A DNA stretch of 64,000 bases from Tepidibacter aestuarii. Its GTDB lineage: Bacteria > Bacillota > Clostridia > Peptostreptococcales > Peptostreptococcaceae. Shown here in pieces: positions 11,799-14,230 of the stretch. Position 1 is the first letter of the stretch, and each line of letters starts with the position of its first letter. The stretch is taken from positions 310,001 through 374,000 of the forward strand of contig NZ_OW235315.1 in the NCBI RefSeq assembly GCF_934924865.1, given 5' to 3'. Made by a program: the position numbers and the translations under genes. The notes beneath the pieces were generated by a model. The model ran no database searches. It had not been told where the DNA came from and was given only the letters and a program-made list of their open reading frames with translations.

Positions 11799-14131
11799 GG
11801 TTAAGTTATTAAGGGCGTAGGGCGGATGCCTTGGCACCAAGAGCCGATGAAGGACGTGGTAAGCTGCGATAAGCTTCGGGGAGATGCAAGCAATCTTTGA
11901 TCCGGAGATTTCCGAATGGGGAAACCCACCTAGAGTAATGTCTAGGTATCCTTAGATGAATACATAGTCTAAGGAGGGGAACCGAGGGAACTGAAACATC
12001 TAAGTACCTCGAGGAAGAGAAAGAAAAATCGATTCCCTAAGTAGCGGCGAGCGAAAGGGGAAGAGCCCAAACCTATGAAGTTTTCTTCATAGGGGTTGCG
12101 GATATGCTCACAAGAAAGAGGTATTGTAGTTGAAGAGGTTTGGAAAGACCCACCATAGAAGGTAATAGTCCTGTAGATTAAACAAGAAGACTTTCGAGCA
12201 TACTCCAGAGTACCACGGGACACGTGAAACCCTGTGGGAAGCTGGGGGGACCACCCCCCAAGGCTAAATACTTCTTGGTGACCGATAGCGTATAGTACCG
12301 TGAGGGAAAGGTGAAAAGAACCCCGGAAGGGGAGTGAAATAGAACCTGAAACCCTATGCCTACAAGCTGTGGGAGCACATTTTTAGTGTGACCGCGTACT
12401 TTTTGTAGAACGGGCCAACGAGTTACGATAAGTAGCAAGGTTAAGGACTTAGGGTCTGGAGCCGTAGCGAAAGCGAGTCTTAACTGGGCGATTCAGTTAC
12501 TTGTCGTAGACCCGAAACCGAGCGACCTACCCATGGCCAGGATGAAGCGAAAGTAAAATTTCGTGGAGGTCCGAACCCACGCACGTTGAAAAGTGCGGGG
12601 ATGAGCTGTGGGTAGAGGTGAAATTCCAATCGAGCTCGGAGATAGCTGGTTCTCCCCGAAATAGCTTTAGGGCTAGCCTCAAGCTTAGAGATGAGGAGGT
12701 AGAGATCCTACGGGCCGAAAACCCAAGGTTTCCTGAGGAAGGTTCGTCCGCTCAGGGTTAGTCGGGACCTAAGCCGAGGCCGAAAGGCGTAGGTGATGGA
12801 CAACAGGTTGAGATTCCTGTACTACCGATAATCGTTTGAAGAATGGGGTGACGCAGAAGGATAGGCTATCCTACTATTGGATATGTAGGTCCAAGCATTA
12901 AGGGAGCATTGATAGGCAAATCCGTCAGTGCAATCCTGAGGTGTGATGGGGAGCGAAATTTAAGTAGCGAAGTAGTCGATTTCATGCTGCCAAGAAAAGC
13001 CTCTACTGAGATTAAGAGAACTTTTGTTAAGGAACTCGGCAAAATGACCCCGTAACTTAGGGATAAGGGGTGCCTCATTAGGGTGTATGCCCGAAGAGGC
13101 CGCAGAGAATAGGCCCAAGCGACTGTTTACCAAAAACATAGGTTTCTGCTAAGTCGAAAGACGATGTATAGGAGCTGACGCCTGCCCGGTGCTGGAAGGT
13201 TAAGGGGATGTGTTAGACTAAGGTCGAAGCATTGAACTTAAGCCCCAGTAAACGGCGGCCGTAACTATAACGGTCCTAAGGTAGCGAAATTCCTTGTCGG
13301 GTAAGTTCCGACCCGCACGAAAGGCGTAACGATTTGGGCACTGTCTCAACAAAAGACTCGGTGAAATTGTAATTCCGGTGAAGATGCCGGATACCTGCGA
13401 CAGGACGGAAAGACCCCATGGAGCTTTACTGTAGCCTGGCATTGGATTTCGATATTACAGGATAGGTGGGAGACTGAGATACGAGAACGCCAGTTTTCGT
13501 GGAGTCATCCTTGGGATACCACCCTTGTAATATTGAGATTCTAACCATAGACCATGAATCTGGTCTTGGGACACTGTCAGGTGGACAGTTTGACTGGGGC
13601 GGTCGCCTCCCAAAATGTAACGGAGGCGCCCAAAGGTTCCCTCAGCACGGTCGGAAATCGTGCGAAGAGTGCAAAGGCAAAAGGGAGCTTGATTGCAAGA
13701 CATACAGGTCGAGCAAGGACGAAAGTCGGGCTTAGTGATCCGGTGGTTCCGCGTGGAAGGGCCATCGCTCAACGGATAAAAGCTACCCTGGGGATAACAG
13801 GCTTATCTCCCCCAAGAGTCCACATCGACGGGGAGGTTTGGCACCTCGATGTCGGCTCATCACATCCTGGGGCTGTAGTAGGTCCCAAGGGTTGGGCTGT
13901 TCGCCCATTAAAGTGGTACGCGAGCTGGGTTCAGAACGTCGTGAGACAGTTCGGTCCCTATCCGTCGCAGGCGTAGGAAATTTGAGAGGAGCTGTCCTTA
14001 GTACGAGAGGACCGGGATGGACATACCTCTGGTGCACCAGTTGTCACGCCAGTGGCATAGCTGGGTAGCTATGTATGGAATGGATAAGCGCTGAAAGCAT
14101 CTAAGCGCGAAGCCAACCTCAAGATAAGATT
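11799..14131 (+). rRNA. rrl: 23S ribosomal RNA, internally deleted and 3'-truncated
   Basis: About 2333 bases instead of roughly 2900. Domain I, the peptidyl transferase loop region and the sarcin-ricin loop (AGTACGAGAGGACCGG near 13998) are present. Three blocks that every bacterial 23S carries are missing. Between 12704 and 12705 about 430 bases of domain II are absent, including the GTPase-associated centre (no GTGCGTAATAGCTCACTGG). Between 13010 and 13011 about 70 bases are absent, including CCGTACCGCAAACCGACACA. After 14131 the last 110 or so bases are replaced by tRNA-Asp sequence. It cannot encode a working 23S as written. Either the copy is defective or the assembly is wrong here. Confidence 0.9.
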
Positions 14132-14201
14132 TAGTTCAGTTGGTTAGAATGCCAGCCTGTCACGCTGGAGGTCGAGGGTTCGAGTCCCTTCCAGGTCGCC
14201 A
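14132..14201 (+). pseudogene. tRNA-Asp (GTC) lacking its 5' acceptor strand
   Basis: From the D arm onward the gene is intact: anticodon loop CTGTCAC with GTC, T arm GGTTCGAGTCC, 3' strand CCAGGTC, discriminator G and encoded CCA. The 7-base 5' acceptor strand expected to pair with CCAGGTC is missing; the preceding bases are 23S sequence (TAAGATT) with no complementarity. It could not be processed or charged as written. Confidence 0.9.
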
Positions 14202-14230
14202 AAAAAATACTTTTAAAATAAATAATATAC

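Follow-up and report, generated by a model that had tools for sequence, protein, structure and literature searches.

Organization of the rrn operon

The window, a 64,000-nucleotide stretch of the Tepidibacter aestuarii genome (C1:310001-374000), is free of Ns and contains one rRNA (rrn) operon together with its flanking open reading frames (ORFs) (Table 1). We numbered the 23S rRNA gene according to a 2921-nt reference sequence, which is letter-identical in 11 operons of the same genome. The 16S gene is preceded by a promoter-like TTGACG-N17-TATATT element, and its flanks pair like those of an intact operon.

Table 1. Features of the rrn operon and its flanks (window positions; 23S positions refer to the 2921-nt reference)
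Feature	Position	Strand	Remarks
ORF, 591 aa, 5' of operon	7846..9621	+	Presumably oligoendopeptidase-like; borders the syntenic G001 locus on the left
16S rRNA gene, full length	10152..11666	+	Relative to 10 identical 16S copies: C180T, T1425C, C6 run at 816 short of one C
23S nt 1-906	11799..12704	+	Single substitution C333T
Joint 1, 23S 906|1320	12704..12705	+	413 nt lost, 0 nt shared; lost segment contains GGATGTTGGCTTAGAAGCAGCC, which we take to be the GTPase-associated centre
23S nt 1320-1629	12705..13014	+	Single substitution G1542A
Joint 2, 23S 1629|1688 (or 1630|1689)	13014..13015	+	58 nt lost, 1 nt shared
23S nt 1688-2128	13015..13455	+	1892-1895 are TAAG, not ATTA
Small loss, 23S 2129-2134	13455..13456	+	6 nt lost within TACATGTACA, 4 nt shared
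23S nt 2135-2811	13456..14132	+	
23S-Asp joint, 23S nt 2811 | tRNA-Asp nt 9	14132..14133	+	One T shared
tRNA-Asp (GTC) nt 9-77	14133..14201	+	Acceptor 5' strand absent
tRNA-Thr, -Tyr, -Met, -Phe	14231..14567	+	All intact
5S rRNA	14583..14699	+	Intact
ORF, 329 aa, 3' of operon	15111..16100	+	Presumably ornithine cyclodeaminase-like; right flank, from which the locus was traced in G001, G002, and G003

The 23S gene of the window lacks 587 nt in total (413 + 58 + 6 + 110). A first-pass annotation of the same DNA had described three clean large joints within this one gene, next to an intact 16S, four intact tRNAs, and an intact 5S. We found exactly this arrangement, all of the latter genes being full length, plus the 6-nt loss that had been overlooked. 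The transition from 23S to tRNA-Asp, previously placed near 14131, lies at 14132/14133. As had been estimated, about 110 3'-terminal bases of 23S are gone, namely the 110 nt that follow nt 2811. The T at 14132 can be read as 23S nt 2811 or as tRNA-Asp nt 8, and the loss from the tRNA comprises nt 1-7 (the earlier count) or nt 1-8. A chance match can be dismissed because the sequences flanking the joint match 23S over >2300 nt and tRNA over 69 nt.

The sequence 3' of the joint (14133-14702) is letter-identical to the 5S-to-Asp block at C1:3100170-3100744. This block belongs to the operon C1:3100170-3106049 of the same genome, in which it comes after a first 5S and further tRNAs.

A short element within the 23S gene, nt 1889-1898 (window 13216-13225), forms a GAC-NNNN-GTC hairpin, the loop of which differs among copies and among species in this genus (ATTA, TAAG, GTAA, and GCAA).

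Consequences of the joint for 23S and tRNA-Asp

In each of two intact operons, the 23S processing stem folds into a single long helix (cofold energies of -40.3 and -40.9 kcal/mol). The same calculation with the window-joint sequence yields only -23.4 kcal/mol and different base pairs, indicating that the 3' strand of the processing stem is absent, in line with the earlier remark that the 5' end of 23S has lost its partner. In the tRNA-Asp at the joint, one of the seven acceptor-stem pairs can form, compared with seven of seven in an intact copy; it does not possess the seven-pair acceptor stem of a functional tRNA-Asp. Both genes lack segments that are required for function, as pseudogenes do. 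A search for further tRNA-Asp genes, as the first-pass annotation had proposed, returned six intact and identical copies in the genome stretches examined.

The orthologous operon in related genomes

We located the locus in three other genomes of the genus via the downstream ORF. In the sister genome G001 (2 contigs), the locus shares both the upstream sequence and the downstream ORF with the window (within C1:3362001-3380000, L159), and its operon is whole, consisting of 16S, full 23S, tRNA-Glu, -Val, -Asp, -Thr, -Met, -Phe, and 5S. The flanks and the order 16S-23S-...-Asp-Thr-...-Met-Phe-5S are common to both operons, whereas G001 possesses the full 23S, tRNA-Glu, tRNA-Val, and a whole tRNA-Asp, and has no tRNA-Tyr. 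At the joint, the window is 320 nt shorter than the G001 ortholog. The earlier account of the joint was correct for the bases lost from 23S and tRNA-Asp but incomplete, as the interval missing relative to G001 spans these 320 nt and includes tRNA-Glu and tRNA-Val.

The two other genomes are drafts. In G002, which represents another species, an intact Asp-Thr-Tyr-Met-Phe-5S block is present, but its contig begins only 46 nt ahead of this block and leaves 23S outside the view. The contig of G003 begins at the 5S and is uninformative for the joint. A 28-mer across the 23S-Asp joint was not found in these three genomes with ≤3 mismatches allowed (G002 and G003 being drafts), and a second 28-mer across the joint had no exact match in the GTDB r220 contigs, among which the genome's own contigs may not be included. 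An inherited deletion is unsupported by these searches and by the whole ortholog in G001; a recent deletion need not be common to relatives.

The G001 ortholog of the downstream ORF (C1:3366674-3367659, L159) is present as two overlapping frames, which suggests an indel error or a frameshift in the G001 assembly.

Other rrn loci of the genome

The genome contains 17 23S loci, 11 of which are letter-identical and six of which are odd; its rrn operons measure about 4.5-6 kb. All damage found sits in these six of the 17 loci, a count that covers rrn loci only. Large joints occur at four loci, and those at 72082 and 3497771 show only small losses, the 23S at 72082 displaying small differences from the 11 identical copies. 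Besides the window operon, large joints affect C1:3506629 (23S 1813|1908), C1:3510729 (23S 2265|2318), and C1:1318896. At the last of these, a 16S without its last 21 nt joins 23S nt 85; a segment similar to 23S 605-627 separates 766 from 1196; and the junction of 1520 with 2700 includes one extra base.

Two of these regions show additional features. At C1:3510728-3510729 (L050), 23S nt 2428 adjoins nt 375 of the next 16S, so that two tandem operons are fused; this 23S-16S fusion is probably an artefact of the same type as the joint in the window. The scrambled mid-chromosome operon at C1:1317424-1320542 (L044), which comprises locus 1318896, is followed by tRNA-Gly and two 5S copies.

Small indels in the odd copies, counted without the scrambled stretch of 1318896, are 16 deletions and no insertions. 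Half of them (8/16) remove one C from the sole C6 run of 16S (position 816, four copies) or of 23S (position 456, four copies); in a ninth deletion, a T5 run is shortened. Homopolymer shortening is a known trait of nanopore R9 reads, but the change from C6 to C5 could also be a real variant.

Several substitutions of the odd copies recur in G001, namely C180T, T1111C (15/15), and T1425C (7/15) in 16S and C313T (15/15) in 23S. We conclude that the odd copies are true paralogues and not noise. Their status as paralogues gives no support to the joints themselves.

Taken at face value, the window would hold a real operon scarred by deletions. It and three more of the 17 loci would have escaped selection on 23S amid about a dozen intact copies; 23S and tRNA-Asp would be dead, and the operon would yield only 16S, four tRNAs, and 5S. 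We consider this unlikely but not negligible. The joints are clean and N-free, the promoter-like element and the pairing 16S flanks are in place, and the six intact copies render the damaged tRNA-Asp redundant. Likewise, the odd copies retain the states of G001 listed above, as paralogues that escape gene conversion would. However, the homopolymer losses lie within the same odd copies, and all 15 23S matches in the sister genome (11 distinct sequences) are full length. The nature of the joints and of the substitutions, described below, also weighs against a real scar.

Sequence at the joints and apparent constraint on 23S

Among the eight large joints, five have no shared nucleotide (906|1320, 1813|1908, 2265|2318, 23S|16S, and 16S|23S), two share 1 nt (1629|1688 and 23S|Asp), and one (1520|2700) carries the extra base. 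For random cuts in 23S, the mean is 0.72 shared nt, with 6.5% sharing ≥3 nt, and the distribution at the large joints is much like that of random cuts. Microhomology-mediated deletion was rejected on the basis of the 0-1 nt shared at seven of the eight joints and the extra base at the eighth. A prior loss of A1319 from the parent copy, as seen at 3497771, would raise the sharing at joint 1 to 3 nt. The 6-nt loss with its 4 shared nucleotides could be a real slip.

Blunt joints might also be produced by Ku-dependent end joining. A search of the one genome for Ku (PF02735) found none, and the control in Bacillus subtilis was positive. This result, together with the minimal sharing at the joints, speaks against a real scar.

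The substitutions of the window 23S point in the same direction. Positions 333, 1542, and 1892-1895 all vary among G001, G014, G050, and G051, which suggests that the underlying 23S gene is functional or constrained. Free decay would not be expected to respect such positions; the gene behind the window pieces looks constrained, although three events are few and decay may still underlie them.

The joint could instead have arisen by a recent rearrangement in the sequenced culture, with some cells carrying it and others an intact version. Homologous exchange among copies should not yield blunt internal losses, and the large joints share only 0-1 nt. Recombination among rrn copies is indeed frequent in bacteria, with an estimate for events within 16S and 23S of Escherichia coli of 3.6e-4 per genome and generation (PMC8022953), but we regard a rearrangement of this kind as very improbable. 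A functional fragmented or chimeric RNA, transcribed from the 23S-Asp fusion and put to use by the cell, is scarcely credible. Nothing except the intact flanking genes speaks for it; the presumed GTPase-centre segment, the processing stem, the 3' end of 23S, and the acceptor stem of the tRNA are all lost; and the joint occurs in no other genome searched.

Broken 23S genes across the family

We searched 71 genomes of the family for 23S, scoring up to four candidates per genome. There are 22 other genomes with ≤10 contigs, and 19 of these were checked copy by copy (all but G024, G045, and G046, with 10 contigs each). Full-length 23S copies number 231 in 18 of the 19 genomes. The remaining one, G033, shows no full-length 23S; its 16 fragments lie where contigs are strung together by 100-N runs.

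Apart from G033, we found 19 broken 23S loci (two in G013, one in G014, five in G050, seven in G051, one in G056, and three in G058). Fifteen adjoin Ns or contig ends, comprising all those of G013, G014, G050, and G056 (the last at a contig end) and six of the seven in G051. The Ns beside the three G013 and G014 loci may not be assembly gaps, which makes these loci uninformative. Because of the Ns or contig ends, we dropped G050, G051, G013, G014, G056, and G033 as evidence for decay. This includes the same-locus broken 23S genes of G050 and G051, at first sight support for real decay, where Ns lie at or beside the joints. Four broken loci are located away from Ns, namely G051 C1:5659-6253 (23S 2326-2921) and the three on contig C8 of G058; this contig is 14 kb long, and one of its three 23S pieces ends 12 nt from the contig end.

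In several other family genomes, many 23S copies have equal scores, which suggests that they are identical. For this reason, the identity of 11 copies in the window genome is a weak argument, though G001 has 11 distinct sequences among 15.

Origin of the 23S-tRNA-Asp joint

The genome that contains the window is that of Tepidibacter sp. 8C15b. Its assembly consists of a chromosome of 3,628,320 bp and a plasmid of 38,213 bp and was generated with Unicycler v0.4.6 as a hybrid of Illumina 2x250 and nanopore R9.4.1 reads (PMC9302160). The nanopore reads have an N50 of 2.66 kb, and the reads of both types are deposited under project PRJEB50689 (PMC9302160). This N50 is shorter than an rrn operon, which makes the operon an unspanned repeat. 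According to the description of Unicycler, single-copy contigs are bridged via graph paths that are picked with long reads, and where no graph path is available the long-read consensus is taken directly, which is more error-prone (PMC5481147).

We consider it most likely that the 23S-Asp joint is an assembly error in a mis-bridged, unspanned repeat. This reading is favored by the assembly method, the concentration of the damage found in odd rrn loci, the nanopore-like deletions, the intact ortholog in G001, and the small number of N-free broken 23S genes in the 19 family genomes checked. The organism itself most likely does not carry the fused 23S-tRNA-Asp. The anatomy described by the first-pass annotation is accurate, whereas the physically fused gene that it implied is the weaker reading of that anatomy.

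Under mis-bridging, the 17 near-identical rrn loci would collapse in the short-read graph, and the nanopore reads would rarely cross an operon of 5-6 kb. Paralogue variants would split the graph into small pieces, which may then have been joined on too little read support, with the intervening segments being lost. The expected outcome would be blunt joints between accurate pieces, accompanied by scattered homopolymer losses. The true locus is probably an ordinary operon with a whole 23S, tRNAs running through Asp-Thr-Tyr-Met-Phe, and a 5S. We infer that bridging made these particular joints, and likewise the step at which each segment was lost. The window pieces are accurate and contain the paralogue variants shared with G001, so they do not represent raw nanopore sequence. 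A coincidence of the joint ends with the ends of graph segments was considered and not established.

Some observations fit mis-assembly less well. The assembler would need to have dropped 413, 58, and 320 nt at a single locus, the window is free of Ns, and the four broken loci of G051 and G058 also lie away from Ns. The literature on assembly error, in the excerpts available, holds no published case of exactly such a failure, and a literature search on bacterial 23S pseudogenes and truncated operons yielded nothing specific.

A useful comparison is provided by the genome of Romboutsia ilealis CRIB (G050; 2,581,778 bp). Its authors describe three gaps, all within rRNA operons, as well as five non-standard rRNA loci, which they read as structure while acknowledging the gaps (PMC5598433). 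As in the window, 23S genes that are truncated or have internal deletions accompany intact 16S and 5S there, at unresolved places of the assembly. In contrast to the window, the breaks are marked by Ns or contig ends; an N-free joint is expected if a bridge was written into the sequence. A degenerate rRNA operon would likewise combine a dead 23S and tRNA with a multi-copy background and intact neighbors. Unlike such a pseudogene, the window joint is shared by none of the searched genomes, and its substitutions are few and at variable positions.

If the joint is an artefact, "complete" genomes built from long reads shorter than an rrn operon may contain clean rRNA fragments, fusions, and dead tRNAs that no N marks. 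Such errors would distort rRNA copy counts, estimates of intragenomic 16S and 23S variation, and tRNA gene sets. If it were real, it would mark a bacterial operon in which 16S and 5S persist while 23S function is lost. Such an operon would provide a living test of the tolerance to a 16S gene dosage that differs from that of 23S and to a transcribed dead 23S, as well as a test of a deletion process that acts mainly on rRNA genes and leaves blunt joints without Ku.

Two further observations on rRNA genes in public sequences were made. In G017, three adjacent full-length 23S genes near a contig end (C1:2988990-3003752, L179 in part) are 85-86% like the query, compared with 89% for the other nine copies of this genome; the divergent copies may be unpolished sequence. 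Among the "plasmid" matches listed from PLSDB, 24 of 25 are Clostridioides difficile records of 10-163 kb with rRNA operons, which may be chromosome fragments filed as plasmids.
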